From Haloplanus natans DSM 17983 (lineage in GTDB: Archaea > Halobacteriota > Halobacteria > Halobacteriales > Haloferacaceae): a stretch of 64,000 bases of DNA. Positions 21,765-42,538 of this stretch are shown piece after piece. The notes below the pieces were generated by a model. It did no database searches, had not been told where the DNA came from, and was given only the letters and a program-made list of their open reading frames with translations. The position numbers and the translations under genes are program-made. Each line of letters opens with the position of its first letter. Within the stretch, counting starts at the first letter, position 1. The stretch lies in NCBI RefSeq assembly GCF_000427685.1, contig NZ_KE386573.1, forward strand, positions 310,001 to 374,000, in the 5' to 3' direction.

Positions 21765-22262
21765 GTGTTTGCGAGCGGAGCGATCGTCTCGCTGGACCAC
21801 GGCGTCCTCACCGTTCCCGTCCGCGACCCGCATCTAGAGGACGGCCCGCACGTCTCCGTCCGCAAGCAGGCCGCCGACGTCATGACGCCCGTCGATCTGA
21901 TCGAGCGCGACGCCATCTCGACGGAGCTCGTCACCCTGCTGTGGATGCTGTACGAACGCCACGGCGTCGTCCTCTTCTCCGGGCCGACCGGGGTCGGCAA
22001 AACGACGCTCACGAACGCTCACATGCCATTCGTCCCCTACGACGACCGCCCCGTCTCCATCGACGAGGGGAGCCGCGAGGTGCGACTCCCCCACGAGACG
22101 GGCGTCTCCCTGACGACCCGGGACCACGAAAACGAGTACAAACGCGTCTCGATGGCCCGGCTGATGACCGAAACGAACTACCTCAACCCGGACGTGGAGG
22201 TCATCGCCGAGATCAACACGCCCGCCTCCTTCGAGACGTTCGGCGAGACGCTCAATACGGGC
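21765..22262 (+). pseudogene. Secretion/pilus ATPase gene, central fragment (2 of 3)
   Basis: An open stretch coding the core of a haloarchaeal type II/IV secretion ATPase: VSVRKQAADVMTPVDLIER, Walker A SGPTGVGKTTL, SIDEGSREVRLPHETGVSL, then DVEVIAEINTPASFETF and LNTG. It ends exactly after ...CTC AAT ACG GGC. The same protein resumes at 44390 as CAC GGT GTC (HGVIGTTHAENVETL). In the native gene the order would be LNTG-HGVIGTTHAENV. The frame itself is undamaged, so the break is caused by the 22-kb insertion. Confidence 0.85.
22255..22262 (+). repeat. 8-bp direct repeat at left border of the 22-kb element
   Basis: ATACGGGC is present here and again at 44382-44389. Fusing the two flanks at a single copy restores the ATPase reading frame exactly, so it behaves as a target-site duplication. 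Confidence 0.8.
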
Positions 22263-22344
22263 TATAGTCGAGATCCGCTAATACAACCTTGCTGAAGTTC
22301 TACTCCAGAGATATGATTTGGACGGCGTGCTGAATACAGGGCGC
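22261..22344 (+). repeat. 84-bp imperfect direct repeat, copy A (element left end)
   Basis: Aligns without gaps to 23597-23680 with about 65 of 84 positions identical by eye. The best-kept parts are TATAGYCGAGATC, GAAGTTC and GTGCTGAATACAG. The first bases overlap the direct repeat. Copies A and B flank the membrane-protein gene in the same orientation. Confidence 0.7.
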
Positions 22345-23425: not shown

Positions 23426-23596
23426 TACTCTCAGCTAATACTGAGACAATAAAAAATGTAGCCGGTAGTTCATCAGCAAATCCATTTTAAGAGGCATTTC
23501 TATACGCCTGAGCAGACGATCTGCTGCAGACATCCTCTATATTCTGCATATAGCTTCTATCAGCTTCGGGAGACTTCAGCAAGAGCCTCATTACAG

Positions 23597-23680
23597 GTTA
23601 TAGCCGAGATCAACTAATACGGCCGTGTTGAAGTTCTTCTAAATGGATATCTTTTGAACGGTGTGCTGAATACAGAGAGC
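23597..23680 (+). repeat. 84-bp imperfect direct repeat, copy B
   Basis: The second copy of the element-end sequence, beginning GTTATAGCCGAGATCAAC. It lies in a 350-bp spacer (23426-23779) that otherwise shows no gene. It may mark an older left end or an IS remnant. Confidence 0.7.
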
Positions 23681-24405: not shown

Positions 24406-26453
24406 TCAGTCCGTAGACGTGGTAGCACGGCTCCGTGGACTAACGAGTGTCGGCTTGTCACCGGATAAGGGAATGCGATTCCCAAGAAGAAGGAGGTATG
24501 TGATCGCCCTCCCGCGTTTCTTACAGAACTCCCCGAACCTTGCGTATTCGTAGTCTTCGGGGTCGTCGAACGGTAGGTGATGTCGGTTGATCCGTTCGCG
24601 CAGTCGGTCATATTCTCTGTCCCGTGCGAGCCAGTTAGATGGATCGCGATTAGATTTCTCCTGATTCTCCGGGATCAGCTGGAGGTTCGCGAGAGAATGT
24701 CTGTACTCAGCACAGTCAGCTCGAACCTCGTCGTTGACATCGTCTAGTGGGCTATCGTCGTCGCTCTCTGAATCGTAGCGGAGCCCGTCCTGTGGATAGA
24801 TGTGATCAATCTGGACCGGTTGCGTATCGCTTTCATCGTTCTCAATCTCGTCAAGGGGGACGACACCACCGATTCGGTCGGTGTACAGTCGCGACAGGAG
24901 TAGGTAGAGCCGAGCACTGCTGCTGGTGTAGTCGATATCCTCGAGGATTGCACCGAGTCGTTGGTAGGTCAGTTCGAACGAGTCGTCCTCACGCTCGATT
25001 GTGTCGAGTAGCTCCGTTGTCGGGAACAGCGGATAGTGATCGTCGATCAATTCCTGTGCGGGCTCTAAGACCTGCTTCGGTCCCTGTTCTAGCACGTTGT
25101 TGAACACTGTCGAACACAGCCAGCGGTCAAGCTGGTAGACTATGTCGTTCGGGAGTTCTTTCTCATCATCTTGGTGATATTAGTAGAAATAATAGCAGAT
25201 CGGAAGCACGGCGGTTTTCGAGGTGAGACACTTGTTGCTAAGCCGGAGATCCTGGGTGACTACGGTGAACGTGTCTTCGATGGCGCGTCGGAATGACGGA
25301 GTCGCCCACGTCTCCCCGGTCGCTCGCATCGTGTCGGGCGAGAAATTGCGCCGTCGGAATGATGGCTCCTCTCCGGCGAGCGTGAGCAGTGCCCGGATTG
25401 TGAACCGTTTGCCGAACCCGAATCCGTAGGCACCGAACTGCTGGCTCAACTCCGTATTGAATTCCTCGATCGCTCCTTTCGGACTATCAATGTCCAGTGC
25501 GTCGACATCGTCCCAGTAGACGGACATCAGCGAGAAGGCGATATCCTCGTTCCCGAGTGGTTCGCCGGCGTCGTTCCGCCGGACAAAAAGCTCAACAGCG
25601 GTCTCGCTATCCATCCCCGTGACCCGTTCGTACTGAAGCCGCGTGTCGTCTGTGAGTGTTTCAGCGAGATGCGTTAGGTTCGTGCAGACATTCGATCGGA
25701 TGGTGTCGACTGACGGCTCGTCCGCTGCTCGTTCGGAAACCACCTCGTTGGCGATACGGTCGATTCCATCATAGTCGGTCGCGCCATCTCTGACGATCGA
25801 GCGAAACTCCTCGACAGGCCACCAGTACTCGTCCTCGTTGTCGGAGAGGCGACTGTAGCTCTCATCACGGAACTTGAACTGGTAGCGGTGCTCTTGTGCC
25901 TCGCGCTCAGCTCTTGGGTCGGCAAGGAGGTCCAGACACAGCCGCATTGGGGTGTAGGAACCCCACTTCCGGTACATGTGGTTCGTTTTGTGCTTGTAGA
26001 ACCGTCCAGACAGGCCGATCAGTAGTGCTGTGAGCCGCTGTTGGCCGTCAAGTGCGAATTAACCGGGGTGCCAATCCGGTCGTCTTCAAGCTTCGCACTC
26101 GTGTTCCGAACGTACCTGCGATCGCTCGACGAGCCCCATTCTGTGGCAGGAAACTTCGAGCTGTTCGCGTAGCGCCGGATGAACTCGTAGGTCGCTTCCG
26201 TCTCCGCGAGCGAGTCACGACTGACGTGCCAGAGCAGGAGTGACCCGATTGGAAGCCCACGGAGGAGCGAGTCGAAGAGCGTGGTTATTTGCTTGCGGCC
26301 CCAGCAGAACTCTCGCTGGAGCGATGGGATTACTACGGGAGGGTCGGCAACGTTATCTTGCTCTTTTGTAACCAGCCGACCGTATAGAGAGAGCGGCGAT
26401 TCGCTATCCGGTGTCGTCTCTGGGGAAGATGTTTTATTGTTGGATCTTAGCAC
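24406..26453 (-). pseudogene. Decayed DUF262/DUF1524 (GmrSD-like) nuclease gene
   Basis: Three reading pieces form one protein. The 5' piece (26019-26453) has the DUF262 opening IPSLQREFCWGRKQITTL and GLPIGSLLLW. A one-base frameshift near 26040-26060 separates it from the LDGQQRLTALLIGL motif. The second piece ends at an in-frame TAA (25180-25182) and the same frame resumes as YHQDDEKELPND, continuing to the DUF1524-type HIYPQ site and NLQLIPENQEKSN. Intact relatives are GmrSD-type modification-dependent restriction enzymes. With one frameshift and one nonsense codon it is probably inactive. Confidence 0.8.
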
Positions 26454-27532: not shown

Positions 27533-28651
27533 TCACACATTCAGCTTGAACACATTTTCGCGATATAGGTCTGTGATGTCTTCGTAATAGGTGTGAATGT
27601 ACTCGTCAATCGCACCGCGTTCTTGAATCGACATGGATCCCGCAGTATCACCCCGCATGTACTTGATGAGCTCTCGATTCAGATCCTTTTCAACCCGCCA
27701 GTATGTCGTGAAGTAGTGGCGACCGTAGTGGCTGGTGACGGCTCGATTCTGCTCCGTCTCGGCGTACTCCGGTCGGAAAGCATCTTTCCACGGCTGGTTG
27801 ATGTCCTGTTTTCGGAGCTGCTCGTGGCGAGTTAACGAGAGGAACACCCATGGCCCACCAGTATCCGGTCGGATGAGCAGATATCGGAGCAGCACACGCC
27901 GAAGCTCGTTGTCCAGCGGCAGGAGGCGTGGACGCTGGGACTTGTTCCCTTCGCGGTCGTGCGGCACGTACACGGCGTTCTGACGCCCTTCCAATCGCGG
28001 ATTCGACCCGAGCTCCGGATAGTGCTCCCGGAGGTCGGCGTTCTGAATATCGATATCCGACAACTGCAGGTTACACACTTCCGTCGCCCGGAGGCCGAGT
28101 TTCAACTGGAGCGCGATGATAGCACGGTTGCGGACGTGTGTGACGCCCTCCAGTACGTCCCGGAGGTCCGCCAGCGGGATTCGTGGCGGTTCCTTACTCT
28201 CCACGTCAGCGAACGTCACCTTGGTTTTCGCGAGGCTGATAGGATTGTAGTCTTGGGGGTGCGGAAACGTTGGATCGTCCTGCCAATAGGTGTAGGCGTT
28301 GTTCAGCTTTCGGAGCTTCTCTTTCACCGTGTCGGGATGGTTGTCCTTGGTGTCGAGTTCGTGGCGAGCGAAGCCCTTCACATGGCCTTCACTCGGACAG
28401 GCTGGATGACGACCTTGGTCAGTCATGAACTCGCGCCACTGTCGAAAGACGCGGTCGTACCCCTCGCGTGTTCGAGCGGCGATATCTCGTGTCGCCAGTA
28501 CTTCGGCTGTGAATAGGGCGAAGGGATCCGCATCAGCCTGCTGGAATGTCGCCTCATACTCTGCAAGCGGATCCAGCTCCTGACCGAACGCAACGGCCAG
28601 TTCCGCCCATTGTGCGTCTGTCGTCGTCTCGGTGTTAGGAGTGTCACTCAT
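27533..28651 (-). CDS. Tyrosine recombinase/integrase
   Basis: A 372-aa protein starting MSDTPNTETT. The N-terminal SAM-like core-binding domain (about 50-145) is followed by a catalytic domain with Arg188 (LGLRATEVCNL), His308-x-x-Arg311 (SHYGRHYF) and a C-terminal tyrosine cluster (YIHTYYED, residues 351-356). The operon (integrase, core-binding protein, helical/coiled-coil protein, small protein) resembles the integrase modules of haloarchaeal pleolipovirus-like elements such as SNJ2; that link is by family knowledge. Its ATG overlaps the upstream stop by 4 bp. It probably catalyses integration and excision. Confidence 0.85.
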   Translation of the reverse strand: MSDTPNTETTTDAQWAELAVAFGQELDPLAEYEATFQQADADPFALFTAEVLATRDIAARTREGYDRVFRQWREFMTDQGRHPACPSEGHVKGFARHELDTKDNHPDTVKEKLRKLNNAYTYWQDDPTFPHPQDYNPISLAKTKVTFADVESKEPPRIPLADLRDVLEGVTHVRNRAIIALQLKLGLRATEVCNLQLSDIDIQNADLREHYPELGSNPRLEGRQNAVYVPHDREGNKSQRPRLLPLDNELRRVLLRYLLIRPDTGGPWVFLSLTRHEQLRKQDINQPWKDAFRPEYAETEQNRAVTSHYGRHYFTTYWRVEKDLNRELIKYMRGDTAGSMSIQERGAIDEYIHTYYEDITDLYRENVFKLNV

Positions 28652-29130
28652 CGTTTCGAACCTCCACGACGGCGGGCCATCTTCTCGTCCCACACCTTGC
28701 CTGCCGCTCCACCGTCGGCGGCAGCCATCAGTACCGGATGGTGCGTGTGCGGATGTTCAGTGTGCCACTGGAGCCAGTGGTAGAACCGCTCCACACGGAC
28801 CCAGTAGGAGTTGTACGCGGTCTTGAGTTTCAGCCGGTCTAGGAGGTCTGTCATCCACGTCTCCACGTCGGCCGGCGTGGCAAGCGCGTGATGACGGCCG
28901 CGCTCGGCCATGTGCTCCTTCCAGTAGCGACCAGCGCGGCGAGCATCCTCTTTGAACCGGTCGGAGTCAAAGCGTGGAAACAGGTGCTCGGTCAGGAACT
29001 CGTCCCACACGTCGCGTCCTTCGTAGGCGTTCGCGTGGTGGTGGAGGCGATAGCGATCCGGCACGTCCGACAGCCGCTTGTAGACGCCCATGCGATCTCG
29101 CGGATCCGGGGACTTCCGGCCGCGACTCAT
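28648..29130 (-). CDS. Integrase-associated core-binding-domain protein
   Basis: A 160-aa protein (MSRGRKSPDPRDRMGVYKRL). The segment AYNSYWVRVERFYHWLQWHTEHPH resembles the SAM-like N-terminal domain of tyrosine recombinases, but there is no catalytic domain. It overlaps the integrase ATG by 4 bp and the preceding stop by 1 bp (or 4 bp if the GTG at 29133 is used). It is likely an accessory factor for recombination, as in SNJ2-like modules. Confidence 0.7.
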   Translation of the reverse strand: MSRGRKSPDPRDRMGVYKRLSDVPDRYRLHHHANAYEGRDVWDEFLTEHLFPRFDSDRFKEDARRAGRYWKEHMAERGRHHALATPADVETWMTDLLDRLKLKTAYNSYWVRVERFYHWLQWHTEHPHTHHPVLMAAADGGAAGKVWDEKMARRRGGSKR

Positions 29131-35200: not shown

Positions 35201-36250
35201 ATGACTGACAACCGCCGGATGACCGCCGATCGGTTCTACGGCGGTGTCTCCAGTCGGCTCCAAAATCTCCGGTCGATGCTCACCTACGTTCGTGACGAGT
35301 CTCCCACCCGAAACGAACTCAATCAGTGGGTCATCGAAAACACCCGAGCAGGAAGTTCGGATGCCGTCAGCCACCATCTCACGTTTCTCGAGTCAATTAG
35401 ACTCATCGAGCTATCCGACACCGGGTGCGAACTTAATAAGTATGGCCAGCGGTGGCTCGAAGACCAGACACCGGAAACGCTCTACGAGGCTCTCTCATCG
35501 GGAGTGAAGGGATTCGACACTATCCTCGAAGCCCTGCAGGAGGGGTCGATGACTGATGAGGACATCATGGATCTGCTCGTCGGTGAGTTCGACGAGGCTC
35601 AGATGTCAAAGCCTGGACCTGCGATTCGACACCGGGAATGGTTGCAAGTCCTGGGGTTCGTGGAACGTGAAGATGGAGTGAATAGACTCACCCCTGAAGG
35701 CCGCGAGTTACTGGAAGCGGAAACTGAAACGGAATCTGAGGCACGTCACGGGACGGGCGAGCCGACCCAGGGAGCCGTTGAAACGGAACGCACACGTCTC
35801 GAAAACGCAACGGATAGCGAACCGCAATTGATTGACGACGAGGAGATATATACTGAAGCTCGCAGACGTGCGCGTGATACGGCGTTCTCGGAGTTGGTTC
35901 GGCAAGCGTATGATACGACGTGTGCTATCTGTGGACGCAGTCGAGAAACACCGAATGGGAATCCCGAGGTCGAAGCAGCTCATATCTACCCCAAACAGGA
36001 GGGCGGAGCCGATGATGTGCGAAACGGGATTGCCCTCTGTAAGCTACACCACTGGGCCTTCGATACGGGGTGGCTCGCAATCAGTGACGAGTATGAGATT
36101 TTGGTGAAGGAGGCCCCTGCTCGGAACGGCTACCACGAATTCAAGCGGCTTGAAGACGACAAGATTACTCTTCCCGACGAAGAGCAGGCAGAGCCTCATC
36201 CGATGTTTCTCACAGAACACCGCCAACGTCACGGATTCAACGATGACTGA
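35201..36250 (+). CDS. HNH endonuclease with N-terminal winged-helix region
   Basis: A 349-aa protein. Residues 1-175 contain two winged-helix-like units (NELNQWVIENTRAGSSDAVSHHLTFLE; EDIMDLLVGEF) ending in REWLQVLGFVE. The C-terminal HNH has Cys241-x2-Cys244, His261 in EAAHIYPK, and Cys279/His283-His284 (LCKLHHWAFD). This is a sequence-binding helper fused to a DNA-cutting domain, as in restriction factors. Its stop overlaps the start of the DUF6884 gene by 8 bp, so the three genes 35201-37315 form a tight operon. Confidence 0.85.
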   Translation: MTDNRRMTADRFYGGVSSRLQNLRSMLTYVRDESPTRNELNQWVIENTRAGSSDAVSHHLTFLESIRLIELSDTGCELNKYGQRWLEDQTPETLYEALSSGVKGFDTILEALQEGSMTDEDIMDLLVGEFDEAQMSKPGPAIRHREWLQVLGFVEREDGVNRLTPEGRELLEAETETESEARHGTGEPTQGAVETERTRLENATDSEPQLIDDEEIYTEARRRARDTAFSELVRQAYDTTCAICGRSRETPNGNPEVEAAHIYPKQEGGADDVRNGIALCKLHHWAFDTGWLAISDEYEILVKEAPARNGYHEFKRLEDDKITLPDEEQAEPHPMFLTEHRQRHGFNDD

Positions 36251-36668
36251 AATTGGACTTGTAAGCTGTGTCAAGACCAAGCAAGAGGAGTCAGCTACTC
36301 CAAAGAACCTCTACACATCACCGTATTTCGAAAAGATGCAGGCATATGCCGAACAGTACCACGACGACTGGTGGATCCTCTCGGCCAAGCACGGTCTTCT
36401 TGACCCAGACGGGATTGCTATCGAGCCCTACGACGAAACTCTCACTGGCGCAAGAGTCGGACAGAAGCGAGAGTGGGCCAATCGCGTTGCCGAACAGTTG
36501 GATGAAGAGGGGCTTCTTTCAGACGATATTACCCTCGTTCTACACGCAGGGAAAGACTACTACGAGGAATTGCTACCCCTTCTCGAAGATAACAACGTGT
36601 CTGTTGAAATCCCAACAGAGGGGTTAGCTATCGGAGAGACGCAAGCGTGGTACAACGAACGACTATGA
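36243..36668 (+). CDS. DUF6884-type protein
   Basis: A 141-aa protein starting MTEIGLVSCVKTKQEE. SCVKTK, NLYTSPYFEKMQ and WWILSAKHGLLDPD are the DUF6884 hallmarks, seen in short proteins distantly like YaaA. Biochemistry is unknown; such proteins recur in mobile and defence-type loci. It overlaps the HNH gene by 8 bp and the GIY-YIG gene by 4 bp (ATGA), so expression is coupled. Confidence 0.75.
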   Translation: MTEIGLVSCVKTKQEESATPKNLYTSPYFEKMQAYAEQYHDDWWILSAKHGLLDPDGIAIEPYDETLTGARVGQKREWANRVAEQLDEEGLLSDDITLVLHAGKDYYEELLPLLEDNNVSVEIPTEGLAIGETQAWYNERL

Positions 36669-37333: not shown

Positions 37334-38665
37334 TTACTCCCGAGCATTCGCATCGCGAGCGAGCGGCCGCTGAGCGGGGTCAGGATCTGGTGGCCCTGTT
37401 TCAAAAGATTCCGTTGAGACGGCCTCCTGCATTTGCTTCAGCTGGCGACGTAGTTCGCCAGACGCCGCCTCAACGAGCTTTCTGTCCGGCCAACTGTGGA
37501 TAGTCACATTCCCGAACTTCTCTGCTTTCTTCTGTACGAGGTCAATCTGCTCAAGAGCATATTCAGCCCACGCGTCCTGATCTGTGAGCCGCTCAAATTC
37601 ACGGGCTGCACGCTCGTAGCCGGCCTCCTGAACGGCATTAATGCACATCTCAAAATTCACCCCTCGCGGGTTGATCGGCTCGTGAAACACTACCTCTGGG
37701 TCAATCGCGGAGAACCAACTAAGCGCCTTTTCGATATCCTCACCATCCATCGTCGGATAGGTCGGTGAGAAAGAAACGAACCGAGGCACTCCGGCCCGGA
37801 ACAGCTTATCAAGAGCTTCCCATCGGGCCATTGGCGGCGGCGCGTTCGGTTCGATAGTCCGCACCAATGAGGCGTCGAAACTCGGAATTGACGTGCCGAC
37901 TGTCAGGTTTCCATTCGCGTTTTTGAACAGATCGATATCCCGAATCACGTTCGGACTCCGAGTGAGAATCCGTGTTGGAATATCATGTTCGATCAGTTCG
38001 TGGACACAACTACGGGTAATCTGTGCTGCTCGACGGTCTTGGTAACAATCCGTTCCGCTTGATAGCATTACGACGCCGCGCCCACGTTCGGTCTTCTTCC
38101 AGTCGTCGAAGTTGTGATTCCCCAATCCCGCATGAAGACGCTCGGGGAGATCGTCGCGATAGAGCAGATAGTTTCCCCAGTCGCGCTGAGGATCGTCTAC
38201 GTCGGCCTCTTCTGCCAACATATCCTCACGACTGTCGACAGCCGGCGTTGAGGGAACGTAACAGAATTTACAGCCGTGGCGGCATCCGGTGGCGACGTTG
38301 ATGACATAGTCACACAGGCTCTTCTCGTGAAGTTTCGACTCGCTCAGAACCGATTTCGTCGGATCGGTGCCGATATTAACGTCACCTTGACTATCAGCGG
38401 TAGTCTGTTGTGCACACTTCCAACAGAGAAGGTGTCCGTCCCTATCGGTACTGAAGCGACCCGTAATCTGGTTCCCACATTCGGAACAGACGAGGCCCTG
38501 TTGCCAGAGATTGATTCGTTCGCCGTGTTCTCGCTCGGCCTCGCGAAGCTCGTCCAGTGTCGGATTCTTTCCGAACTCCCGAACGACGTTGCCCTCGTCG
38601 TCGACGAGGTTCACGAAGCGGTCGTACCAACCGCCGTCGTCGTCCCGTTCGGTCTGGATATGCAT
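37334..38665 (-). CDS. SplB-like radical SAM protein with zinc ribbon (paralogue A)
   Basis: A 443-aa protein. An N-terminal zinc ribbon uses Cys60, Cys63, Cys81 and Cys84. The 4Fe-4S motif is Cys128-x3-Cys132-x2-Cys135 (TGCRHGCKFCYVPSTP). SGTDCYQ, TRILTRSPNVIRDIDLF and IEPNAPPPMARWEAL follow the COG1533/SplB pattern. Proteins of this three-Cys kind are known to co-occur with TcmP. Paralogue B (39174) shares the core but lacks the zinc ribbon. The substrate is unknown; spore-photoproduct-like DNA repair or nucleic-acid modification are only possibilities. Confidence 0.8.
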   Translation of the reverse strand: MHIQTERDDDGGWYDRFVNLVDDEGNVVREFGKNPTLDELREAEREHGERINLWQQGLVCSECGNQITGRFSTDRDGHLLCWKCAQQTTADSQGDVNIGTDPTKSVLSESKLHEKSLCDYVINVATGCRHGCKFCYVPSTPAVDSREDMLAEEADVDDPQRDWGNYLLYRDDLPERLHAGLGNHNFDDWKKTERGRGVVMLSSGTDCYQDRRAAQITRSCVHELIEHDIPTRILTRSPNVIRDIDLFKNANGNLTVGTSIPSFDASLVRTIEPNAPPPMARWEALDKLFRAGVPRFVSFSPTYPTMDGEDIEKALSWFSAIDPEVVFHEPINPRGVNFEMCINAVQEAGYERAAREFERLTDQDAWAEYALEQIDLVQKKAEKFGNVTIHSWPDRKLVEAASGELRRQLKQMQEAVSTESFETGPPDPDPAQRPLARDANARE

Positions 38666-39173
38666 GAGAACCTCCTGTCCGTCTATCTATCCCCGAACTG
38701 CAAAAACTCACGGCAGCCAAGGCGAAAGTGAAACTAAACGTGCTTACGAACGCGTACGCCAAAATCGGTAGAAGCGGATAGTCTTCTGAAGAGCCCTTCC
38801 GTTTCAAATGGTGTCGGAACTGATCTTCACGGCTTCCCTGCGTGCTTGACGGACTTCTCATCCAGCCATAGATGAACCAGGGTCCCTAGCTTTTCACTAC
38901 GTTCTTCAACGCCGGTCAGCTGCTCCATCAAATATTCTGCTCACCAGTCTCGGTCCCAGAGGTAGTCGGGTTCTTTCGCCAGCCGTTCTGATCGGTATCA
39001 CGCGCCGCCTGCACGGTTGTATGTGATTCCCACTGCGCGGAGTGATCGGCTTCTAGGAGATTACATTCGAATCTATGCAGCCTTTGAACGTTTGCAGGAC
39101 ATTTTAGAAGCGTCCGAATGCCGGTGTATTCCACACATTTATATCTAGAGACAGACAATCGGTGATAGAAACG
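38666..39173. other. Divergent spacer between the two radical SAM genes
   Basis: About 500 bp. The promoter of paralogue B is at its right end (TTTATAT, 39138-39144, about 30 bp before the ATG at 39174). The minus strand has short frames (33 codons from about 38936) that do not look like an established gene. They may be decayed coding sequence. Confidence 0.45.
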
Positions 39174-40223
39174 ATGCCTGACTCTGAAGAGGGGATCCGT
39201 ACTGGTGGAGACCCAACGAAGGCGATCCTCAGCGAGTCGGGACTCAACAGCAAACACTTGTGCGACTACGTAGTTAACGTTGCGACCGGCTGCCGTCACG
39301 GCTGCAAGTTTTGCTACGTCCCTTCAACACCAAATATCCGAGCGCGGCCAGATATGCTCAAAGAGGCTGCTGACGTGGATAACGGCCAAAAAGAGTGGGG
39401 AAACTATGTGCTTTACCGCGACGGACTAGGTGAAAAACTCGACGCCCATCTTGATCGCAAACGAACTTGGCATGAGACTGATCGAGGACAGGGTGTTGTT
39501 GGGGTATCTTTCTCGACGGATTGCTATATGGACGGACGGGCAGGCAAAATCACCCGGAATGTGGTAAAGGCTCTCACGAGTCATAATAAATACACACGGG
39601 TTCTTACACGAAATCCGATTCTGGCGCTCCAAGATTTGGATGTGTTCCAGAAGGCTGGTGAGTACGTCACTATCGGCTCGTCAATTCCGTGTATGGATGC
39701 GGATCAAGTTGGTGCTATCGAACCAAGTGCTCCAGCGCCTGAGCTACGATTGCGGGGACTCAAGGAATTCAATGAGCATGGCGTCCAGACATTTGTCAGC
39801 ATGAGTCCGACGTACCCGACTCAAGACAAGGCTGCCCTGCGCACACAATTGGAACGGGTCGCCGAGTGTGATCCAGCAGTCGTCTTCCATGAACCAATTA
39901 ATCCCCGAGGCGGGAATTTTGAAATGACTGTTGAGGCGGCACAGGAGGCAGAGGAACACGAGCTTGCTGACGCACTGGATGAGTTGCGAACTCGCGATCG
40001 GTGGGTTGAGTACGCGACGAACCATCTCCGGTGGGTTCAGGAGATTGGGCGGGAACTCGATCTGCCGGTGCACCTCTGGCCTGACAAGCAACTCATCAAG
40101 CACGTAGACGACGAGACGGGGCTGTGGTTGCAATCTTGGCGGGAACGGCAGTCCCCTGAGAAATTCGCCGAGCGGGAGATGCCGACACAGACCGAGCCAG
40201 CCTATCCAACGAACTCAGTTTAG
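39174..40223 (+). CDS. SplB-like radical SAM protein (paralogue B)
   Basis: A 349-aa protein starting MPDSEEGIRTGGDPTKAI. The motif is Cys40-x3-Cys44-x2-Cys47 in ATGCRHGCKFCYVPSTP, the same as in paralogue A, with matching TRVLTRNPI and IEPSAPAPELRLRGL blocks. There is no zinc ribbon. The ATG at 39174 is favoured because a TATA-like box is 30-36 bp upstream; GTG 39162 is the alternative. It ends 14 bp before the convergent TcmP-like gene. Confidence 0.8.
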   Translation: MPDSEEGIRTGGDPTKAILSESGLNSKHLCDYVVNVATGCRHGCKFCYVPSTPNIRARPDMLKEAADVDNGQKEWGNYVLYRDGLGEKLDAHLDRKRTWHETDRGQGVVGVSFSTDCYMDGRAGKITRNVVKALTSHNKYTRVLTRNPILALQDLDVFQKAGEYVTIGSSIPCMDADQVGAIEPSAPAPELRLRGLKEFNEHGVQTFVSMSPTYPTQDKAALRTQLERVAECDPAVVFHEPINPRGGNFEMTVEAAQEAEEHELADALDELRTRDRWVEYATNHLRWVQEIGRELDLPVHLWPDKQLIKHVDDETGLWLQSWRERQSPEKFAEREMPTQTEPAYPTNSV

Positions 40224-40237
40224 AATTCTCAGCCGCG

Positions 40238-41263
40238 CTATTTCGTAAAATCGCCGATACTCGTCTGATCGGACACCTCCTCATCAGGGACCTCCTCGTC
40301 GATATCACTCTCGGGAAGATATTGTGTAAACGACGACTGATCATCGTGAATCACGTCAAGAAAGTTATCAACGTCACCCGCGTGGACATCCTCAATGAAA
40401 TCCCGGACGTACTGAATGACTCGAATATATCCACTTCCACCATCGGTTTCTCGCGTTGCGTAGAGGAGGTCGTACTCATAGCTACCAACATTGGCATCGA
40501 CATTCGTAACTCGTTGGACAGATCGTCCATTTTGAGCGAGACACTTTTCGTAGAGGGCCTTCATCTTCGGCCGAACGTCTGTTTGTGGAAGATCCTCTTT
40601 GTTCAAGTCCATGCAGTAGAACTTGTTCAGTTCCTCCGGAACCGGACGCCTTGTGGCGTTGCGACCGATCCCCGAGGCAGTAGGGAGATTAATCAGAAGA
40701 TCCCCCCACGGCTTCGGCGTGAGGGCTTCGATGGCGTTCCATTTCACGTTGAGTTCTTGATTGTCGATGAAGCAATAATAATTGAAGCCACCGTCCTGTA
40801 CGTCTGAGATATCTCTTGCAACCTTTGGAAGCTCTTCGTTTGCATCACCCCGGATGACTGTCCAGTCTTCGGGCTCCTGAGCATCGGTGTGGTTGTCAAA
40901 GATATACTGCATGCGCTTCTCTAAGGCGTCGGCTTTCTCCTCATCCAACTCGATGAGATACATCTTTCTGAACGGCTCTTGGGCAACCTTGGCAGCGATT
41001 ATGGGTGACCCTAAGAAACACAGATCGTCATCGCCGTAGGTAGACACACCGGATCCAGCTAAGGCATCGATATAAAAAAGATCCTGAAAGTAATCGTTGC
41101 TCTCCAGCACGTTAGTATACATATTAACAGCCGCCGAATGGAGGATCAGCTTCAGCGCAGACCAGCTATCGAAGTCGTTTGTTACCGGAGAGAGGTCGCG
41201 TATCTCCTCAGAATCCTCAGTCAGAGATTGAATTCGTTTTTTAATATACTCCGACGAATCCAT
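40238..41263 (-). CDS. Three-Cys-motif partner protein (TcmP-like)
   Basis: A 341-aa protein. DSWSALKLILHSAAVNMYTNVL, LFYIDALAGSGVSTY, FLGSPIIAAK and YLIELDEEKADALEKRM match TcmP, an acidic protein of unknown function that accompanies radical SAM-like three-Cys proteins. IDNQELNVKW and LLINLPTASGIGRN follow. The ATG at 41263 was used; a TTG at 41278 is an alternative. Being next to two SplB-like radical SAM paralogues makes a shared pathway very likely. Confidence 0.75.
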   Translation of the reverse strand: MDSSEYIKKRIQSLTEDSEEIRDLSPVTNDFDSWSALKLILHSAAVNMYTNVLESNDYFQDLFYIDALAGSGVSTYGDDDLCFLGSPIIAAKVAQEPFRKMYLIELDEEKADALEKRMQYIFDNHTDAQEPEDWTVIRGDANEELPKVARDISDVQDGGFNYYCFIDNQELNVKWNAIEALTPKPWGDLLINLPTASGIGRNATRRPVPEELNKFYCMDLNKEDLPQTDVRPKMKALYEKCLAQNGRSVQRVTNVDANVGSYEYDLLYATRETDGGSGYIRVIQYVRDFIEDVHAGDVDNFLDVIHDDQSSFTQYLPESDIDEEVPDEEVSDQTSIGDFTK

Positions 41264-41587: not shown

Positions 41588-42538
41588 ATGGCAAGCAGTT
41601 CGGATTCTGCTGACAGGCCAGCCGATATCGATTTGTTCATCATTCCTGTTAGTGAGGAGTGGCTCCCAAAATTTGACCGAACTGTACGTTCGCCTATCGT
41701 TTTGGATGGCCCTGGAATCCCGGATGAATTGGTTGGTCGTGAAGAGAGAATTTGGGGTATGCTCCGAGGGCCCCGAAATACAACTACCCATGAACAGATG
41801 ACCCCACGCGACTGGCTTCTATTCTATAATCAACAACAATTTTTCGCAACGGGGCGCATCGGCCAGTGCTTCCATCATGACGAGCTGGGCGATAATATTT
41901 GGAATAATCCCAGATCGGAGCTCGGATTCACCGTAGAAGATTTTAGCTCTGTGCGTATTCCGCTTGATGATGTCCGGTCTGCATTGGATTACAAGTCGAA
42001 TTATTACCCTCGGGGCCCGAGCCGGGTTGCTGACGAGAATCTATCAGAATTGCTGAATCAATCCGGAACGATAAGCGAATTTGTAGAGGGGTATTCTGGA
42101 GAGCGCCCGGATTCAGAAGAGCAGGTCGAAGACTATGAACAACCAAAGCGTACCGAGACCACTACTTCTCGAATCATACGGAATACTGATATCGTAAAGG
42201 AACTCAAGGAAACGTACGACCACGAATGCCAAGTCTGTGGAACGAGTCGTCAGAAGCGAGGAGGCGATGGATATGCAGAAGGCCATCATCTAAAACCGCT
42301 AGGTGAGCCTCACAACGGGCCGGATATCAAAGAAAACATTCTCATATTGTGTCCCAATCATCACGCAGATTTCGATTATGGAAGAATCGCTGTGAACCCA
42401 CATACTAACGAAATCACACACGCTTACGAAGGGTCTACAGATGGAGCGACTCTCACGATGGCGTCAGGAGATTCTATCGACGAAGAGCTACTTCGGTACC
42501 ATAATCAAGAGATATCCGAGGTCAACCCTCCGAGCTAA
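41588..42538 (+). CDS. PUA/EVE-like domain fused to HNH endonuclease
   Basis: A 316-aa protein. The N-terminal ~150 residues look like an EVE/PUA-like reader (DWLLFYNQQQFFATGRIGQ; FSSVRIPLDDVR). The C-terminal HNH has Cys214-x2-Cys217, EGHHLKPLG and LCPNHHADFDYGRI. Reader-HNH fusions are typical of type IV (McrA-like) enzymes that cut DNA carrying modified bases. Its promoter is AT-rich. It is convergent with the ASCH gene (3-bp gap). Confidence 0.8.
   Translation: MASSSDSADRPADIDLFIIPVSEEWLPKFDRTVRSPIVLDGPGIPDELVGREERIWGMLRGPRNTTTHEQMTPRDWLLFYNQQQFFATGRIGQCFHHDELGDNIWNNPRSELGFTVEDFSSVRIPLDDVRSALDYKSNYYPRGPSRVADENLSELLNQSGTISEFVEGYSGERPDSEEQVEDYEQPKRTETTTSRIIRNTDIVKELKETYDHECQVCGTSRQKRGGDGYAEGHHLKPLGEPHNGPDIKENILILCPNHHADFDYGRIAVNPHTNEITHAYEGSTDGATLTMASGDSIDEELLRYHNQEISEVNPPS

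Follow-up and report, generated by a model that had tools for sequence, protein, structure and literature searches.

The closest described relative of the system reported here is the pair formed by TcmP (TIGR04474) and DUF5131 (Gp37/Gp68; PF07505), a three-Cys radical S-adenosylmethionine (SAM)-like protein. The pair is found on plasmids and phages, often in convergent orientation, and is annotated but unexplained; TcmPs and their radical-SAM-like partners occur widely, on plasmids, phages and islands alike, and no function has been found for them. A search covering part of the literature returned no paper on the function of DUF5131, the radical SAM mobile pair or GMT-wHTH. A second precedent is provided by M.EcoGIX and M.BceJIII, plasmid-borne N6-methyladenine methyltransferases specific for single-stranded DNA, which are coupled to replication and thought to act on single strands at that stage; unlike the present system they have no radical SAM partner, and their coupling is proposed to run through DNA polymerase I (PMC7736820). 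Here we analyse a 64,000-nucleotide stretch of Haloplanus natans DSM 17983 (the window), in which positions 37334-41263 encode a TcmP together with two radical SAM proteins (RSAM-A and RSAM-B) resembling spore photoproduct lyase (SPL). A reading made earlier from the sequence only had proposed a possibly undescribed system. This is partly true, given the DUF5131 precedent with its unassigned function. What appears from the sequences to be new is the SPL-like RSAM family, the haloarchaeal RSAM heteropair, the exchange of TcmP for a DNA methylase, and C-terminal tails matched to the replication clamp of each domain; no paper on these features was found in the same partial coverage. We tentatively favour, at not quite an even chance, a mobile DNA-base-modifying module that is tethered to the clamp and acts on newly replicated DNA.

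All three genes are present where the sequence-only reading had placed them, and both RSAM genes are intact (Table 1). The ratio of nonsynonymous to synonymous substitutions relative to relatives is at most 0.08 for each, and all three are therefore under purifying selection. TcmP, for which an alternative TTG start lies 15 bases upstream of the ATG, was correctly named, scoring 78 bits (E 1.1e-21) against the TIGR04474 curated cut-off of 53. Both RSAMs pass the Pfam Radical_SAM model (PF04055; 55.4 bits for RSAM-A and 34.5 for RSAM-B, cut-off 29.5). They share core blocks, as had been noticed, with 48% identity over ~330 aa, and both contain LCDYV(I/V)NVATGCRHGCKFCYVPSTP with CxxxCxxC, as well as TGCRHGCKFCYVPSTP. 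The iron-sulfur motif CxxxCxxC is retained in both on alignment, and in all aligned members of the family. RSAM-A and RSAM-B are divergent, whereas RSAM-B and TcmP are convergent with 14 bp between them; the three genes are thus not one operon. As is usual for TIGR04474, TcmP adjoins a three-Cys radical-SAM-like protein, but the partner is SPL-like rather than DUF5131, and in haloarchaea there are usually two. The window RSAMs gave no match to PF07505 at E 0.1, whereas a control protein (L156) matched at 3.9e-92.

The association was surveyed in 391 haloarchaeal genomes and in 291 cyanobacterial genomes sampled evenly. Of the haloarchaeal genomes, 24 contain TcmP, in every case no more than ~2 kb from a full-length RSAM of the window family; two RSAMs stand beside it in 21 genomes and one in the remaining three (G337, G281, G400). 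Full-length RSAMs are present in 29/391 haloarchaeal and 22/291 cyanobacterial genomes, with TcmP adjacent in at least 18 of the latter 22, and the pair is also found in Verrucomicrobiota (L080, L082, L086). Cyanobacterial TcmPs retrieved from sites lacking a window-family RSAM all adjoin DUF5131 (20/20). Gene order and orientation differ among loci, while adjacency is constant. The grouping is not due to chance, and the rare co-occurrence that would have spoken against a system was not seen. When a fixed fourth component was sought around related loci, only RSAM and TcmP recurred. Relatives are carried on plasmids; phage collections searched with RSAM yielded distant relatives only. In several Nostocales (L061-L071) the pair seemingly occupies the same chromosomal site, adjacent to a gene judged by eye to be pntB-like, which suggests vertical inheritance there. 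Acidianus two-tailed virus (L017) has a distant radical SAM relative, of 30% identity, beside transposases.

The term SplB-like, used in the sequence-only reading, is apt for structure and not for sequence. The predicted structure of RSAM-A (mean predicted local distance difference test score, pLDDT, 89.8) has SPL as its closest solved structure (Z 18.6-19.7, ~280 residues; for SplB, Z 19.7, 280 residues aligned, root-mean-square deviation 3.6), followed by SuiB at 16.4, with RlmN and MiaB/RimO also among the matches. However, identity to SplB is 14%, the window RSAMs score 13 and 14 bits against an SPL family (PF20903) cut-off of 27, and they differ from SplB in having a methyltransferase-fold partner and a family-specific CRHGCKFCYVPSTP motif. 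Searches of solved structures with single protein sequences gave no significant match, and a profile search gave weak matches only, to SPL and RlmJ. A cysteine that might correspond to the SPL hydrogen-atom donor C140/C141 is present in the TDCY of most haloarchaeal RSAMs; cyanobacterial members read TDPY, and the RSAMs of L029 and its relative L084 have alanine instead of the cysteine. The best family-model relatives are the PA0069/Rv2578c families (NF033668, 89.6 bits for RSAM-A; NF038135, 65.7 bits for RSAM-B), although these scores are far under the cut-offs of 360 and 430. Both RSAMs also match radical SAM mobile pair protein B (TIGR04470), itself a named member of a mobile two-gene radical SAM pair, at 52 and 47 bits, but the cut-off is 410 and the model for partner A was not among the matches listed.

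In a tree of 63 RSAM proteins the haloarchaeal members comprise clade A (with zinc ribbon, 21), the C lineages (with ribbon, 8) and clade B (without ribbon, 24). The two-RSAM loci in this tree consist of A plus either B or C, and single-RSAM TcmP loci carry the B type; A therefore looks like a partner that joined a B/C-TcmP core and not like a copy made locally. The tree rejects local tandem duplication as the source of A and B. The earlier idea of a duplication with specialised N-termini accordingly needs correcting: A belongs to one old clade and B (or C) to another, the two stay together across families, and the ribbon does not separate their roles. Its presence in one RSAM only is correct for the window and not a rule, because both pair members are ribboned in other haloarchaeal loci. 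The RSAM remnant lying between A and B has a clade C protein as best match (E 4e-11 to L005), as are four of its top five matches. Three further observations concern RSAMs elsewhere: a lone A-type gene (L033:2356-3471) adjoins a protein weakly like NucS endonuclease (PF01939, below cut-off); some cyanobacterial window-family RSAMs are ~650 aa long (L074, L075, L077, L079); and the L075 protein has an intein-like LAGLIDADG insert.

TcmP has the Rossmann fold of class I SAM methyltransferases, with a glycine-rich motif I (DALAGSG), and its model (pLDDT 82.5) is closest to Trm1 (Z 13.8-16.2) and RlmJ (Z 14.2-15.5). RlmJ acts on N6-adenine and Trm1 on N2-guanine, in rRNA or tRNA; we know of neither a clamp tail nor a radical SAM partner for these enzymes. 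Different TcmPs can occupy the slot. RSAM-B of the window shares 80-86% identity with its counterparts on plasmids of Haloarcula, Natribaculum and Halopiger, whereas the neighbouring TcmP is 67-69% identical in L008 and just 17-18% in L009 and L011. In Halorientalis persicus (L029, 4964-5953) TcmP is absent and an Eco57I/N6-type DNA methylase (PF07669, 1.4e-15; PF02384, 3.3e-10) overlaps the RSAM gene; its C-terminus, QSGLGAWSDD, is likewise a PCNA-interacting protein (PIP) box tail.

The tails of TcmP point to the sliding clamp. Residues 308-341 of the window protein are predicted to be disordered (pLDDT <50) and end in QTSIGDFTK, in which Q is followed by a hydrophobic residue at +3 and an aromatic one at +6; FEN1 of the same genome ends with the same motif, QTGLDRWT. 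The PIP consensus with its extreme C-terminal position, and QL(S/D)LF as the bacterial form of clamp motif, are established (PMC3504372, PMC2737543, PMC4929162). In haloarchaea the ending QxxLxxF/W, or one close to it, is shared by TcmPs with at least three dissimilar types of body, and the agreement holds across bodies less than 25% identical. A strict PIP box falls in the last 12 aa of 19/29 haloarchaeal TcmPs, compared with 3/200 neighbouring open reading frames (p 1e-17), and a relaxed one in 23/29 versus 5/200. Long cyanobacterial TcmPs instead end in KQLSIF, KQTKLF, QISLF and similar sequences of the bacterial beta-clamp type, which is found in 20/45 cyanobacterial TcmPs and 2/302 neighbours (p 4e-18). 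The p values overstate the enrichment, because the counts take in related proteins and the neighbours are mechanical open reading frames. Neither motif occurred in the TcmPs of the other domain (0/45 and 0/19). We infer that TcmP binds the clamp.

The beta-clamp motif marks the long winged helix-turn-helix class of cyanobacterial TcmPs; short and 380-aa cyanobacterial TcmPs lack it. As a general TcmP trait it was rejected, since the strict pattern fails in 17/20 DUF5131-paired and 14/19 RSAM-paired cyanobacterial proteins. Unlike the window type, DUF5131-paired TcmPs are mostly without a clamp motif, although one has KQIKLF and three of the four long cyanobacterial ones carry it. PIP-like tails on RSAMs without TcmP (L119 and viral L147) were too few to count.

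A role in nucleic-acid chemistry on DNA is suggested by the clamp motifs, the Eco57I-type partner swap, the SPL fold (that of a DNA enzyme) and the RlmJ/Trm1 folds, with the domain-matched motifs pointing to replication-fork DNA. The proposed module also draws support from the plasmid and defence-rich setting and, by precedent, from the replication-coupled single-strand methyltransferases. A conserved mobile system with a nucleic-acid role, as the sequence-only reading had it, is thus upheld by the strict co-occurrence, the plasmid or island setting, the folds and the putative clamp-binding tails. In the scheme that we favour, TcmP, with its nucleic-acid amino-methyltransferase-type fold, would dock on the clamp by its tail and act behind the fork, on DNA that is single-stranded or freshly synthesised. 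Its SPL-fold partner, of B or C type and in most haloarchaea accompanied by the A type, would generate a 5′-deoxyadenosyl radical and perform the hard chemistry, with either the base itself or a methyl group placed by the methyltransferase as its target. Replicating DNA of the host or the element would in this way acquire a base mark, which might serve for anti-restriction, self-marking or control of the fork in mobile regions rich in defence genes. If radical SAM proteins and a clamp-docked methyltransferase do modify or mend bases, this would be new chemistry for DNA modification or repair. Its fullest form, replication-clamp-guided DNA hypermodification common to archaea and bacteria, with a docked methyltransferase and SPL-fold RSAMs jointly writing a new base on nascent DNA and clamp binding adapted to the domain (PIP box in haloarchaea, beta-clamp motif in cyanobacteria), is possible, on the unlikely side.

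Several points weigh against this scheme. Motif IV of the window TcmP subgroup is DNQ (DNQE), where other TcmPs have DPFG or DPKG, and so departs from the (D/N)P-x-aromatic or DPFG form of active amino-methyltransferases; methyl transfer by this subgroup is therefore uncertain, and the window TcmP may be a binding or recruiting subunit. The case for clamp docking depends on short motifs, which are missing from several classes of TcmP whose partner is the same RSAM or DUF5131. Since the substrates of RlmJ and Trm1 are RNAs, the fold allows an RNA substrate, and no assay or base product is on record for RSAM-TcmP. Finally, no nuclease or sensor recurs, which speaks against a complete restriction or defence system.

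An alternative is clamp-tethered lesion repair, in which the SPL-fold enzymes would use radical chemistry to undo a photolesion or an alkyl lesion, with TcmP as a clamp-docked lesion finder. In the structural comparison SPL is clearly ahead of every other fold. The two main groups of hosts, haloarchaea and surface cyanobacteria, live in strong sunlight, and the low water activity of haloarchaeal habitats could allow lesions of the spore-photoproduct type to form. Clamp docking is also typical of repair factors such as NreA and NucS (PMC4929162). However, the distribution of RSAM is sparse, mobile and, in haloarchaea, defence-linked, unlike that of a general repair need; the partner has a methyltransferase fold, and a DNA methylase can take its place; and the match to the SPL family model stays under the cut-off. 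Because of this swap and the sparse, mobile distribution, base modification is more likely than repair, which we consider unlikely.

Next in order, and unlikely too, is anti-phage defence, a role that the sequence-only reading had raised as a possibility and in which the module would mark or damage invading replicating DNA while self is spared by a mark or by regulation. The flanks of 15 related loci contain type I, II and IIG methyltransferases, a DISARM-type methyltransferase, Cas1, GmrSD and restriction-modification genes, a density that stands without a control set of flanks. BREX adjoins a Nostoc copy, TcmP carries the PADLOC candidate label PDC-M41A, and TcmPs are exchanged beside conserved RSAMs. 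On the other hand, the unit has no recurring companion that is a nuclease, NTPase sensor or toxin: among the related loci no nuclease family is shared beyond an HNH protein in three, and the recurrent cognate nuclease of a restriction-modification system is missing. An RNA modification pair acting on tRNA or rRNA, its clamp-like tails coincidental or serving another contact, would fit the RlmJ and Trm1 folds and the RlmN and MiaB/RimO matches, but is very unlikely in view of domain-matched clamp motifs at the extreme C-terminus, on a predicted disordered tail in the window TcmP, and of the Eco57I-type replacement in L029.

Table 1. Features of the window discussed in the text
Feature	Positions	Strand	Remarks
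RSAM-A, SPL-fold radical SAM protein, clade A	37334-38665	-	443 aa; N-terminal beta-beta-beta-alpha and zinc-ribbon extension
Zinc-ribbon cysteines of RSAM-A	38414-38488	-	C60-x2-C63...C81-x2-C84; from sequence and alignment
CxxxCxxC of RSAM-A	38261-38284	-	C128, C132, C135
Third RSAM gene remnant	38782-38991	-	C-terminal part; E 2.7e-5; one in-frame stop (TGA)
RSAM-B, SPL-like radical SAM protein, clade B	39174-40223	+	349 aa, without ribbon
CxxxCxxC of RSAM-B	39291-39314	+	C40, C44, C47
TcmP, class I methyltransferase fold	40238-41263	-	341 aa counted from ATG
Predicted PIP box of TcmP	40241-40267	-	QTSIGDFTK; C-terminus, end of predicted disordered tail
GmrSD-type (DUF262/GmrSD_C) modification-dependent restriction gene	24406-26453	-	Split over three reading frames, apparently decayed
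Tyrosine recombinase	27533-28693		In island
HNH genes	35201-36250 and 41588-42538		Remote likeness to phosphorothioate-DNA restriction enzymes
DUF6884 protein	36150-36668	+	Adjoins RSAM genes; PADLOC PDC-M57A; weak DpdC likeness

The three-gene unit lies in a low-GC stretch at ~22-45 kb of the window, with 46-60% GC compared with ~65-72% outside, and this island also contains ASCH and GIY-YIG genes besides the neighbours listed in Table 1. DpdC, which the adjoining DUF6884 protein weakly resembles, is part of a 7-deazapurine DNA modification system. At the left edge of the island, two copies of a 106-nt repeat (22239-22344 and 23575-23680; 76% identical), corresponding to the end of an ATPase-like gene, flank a 1.2 kb insert.

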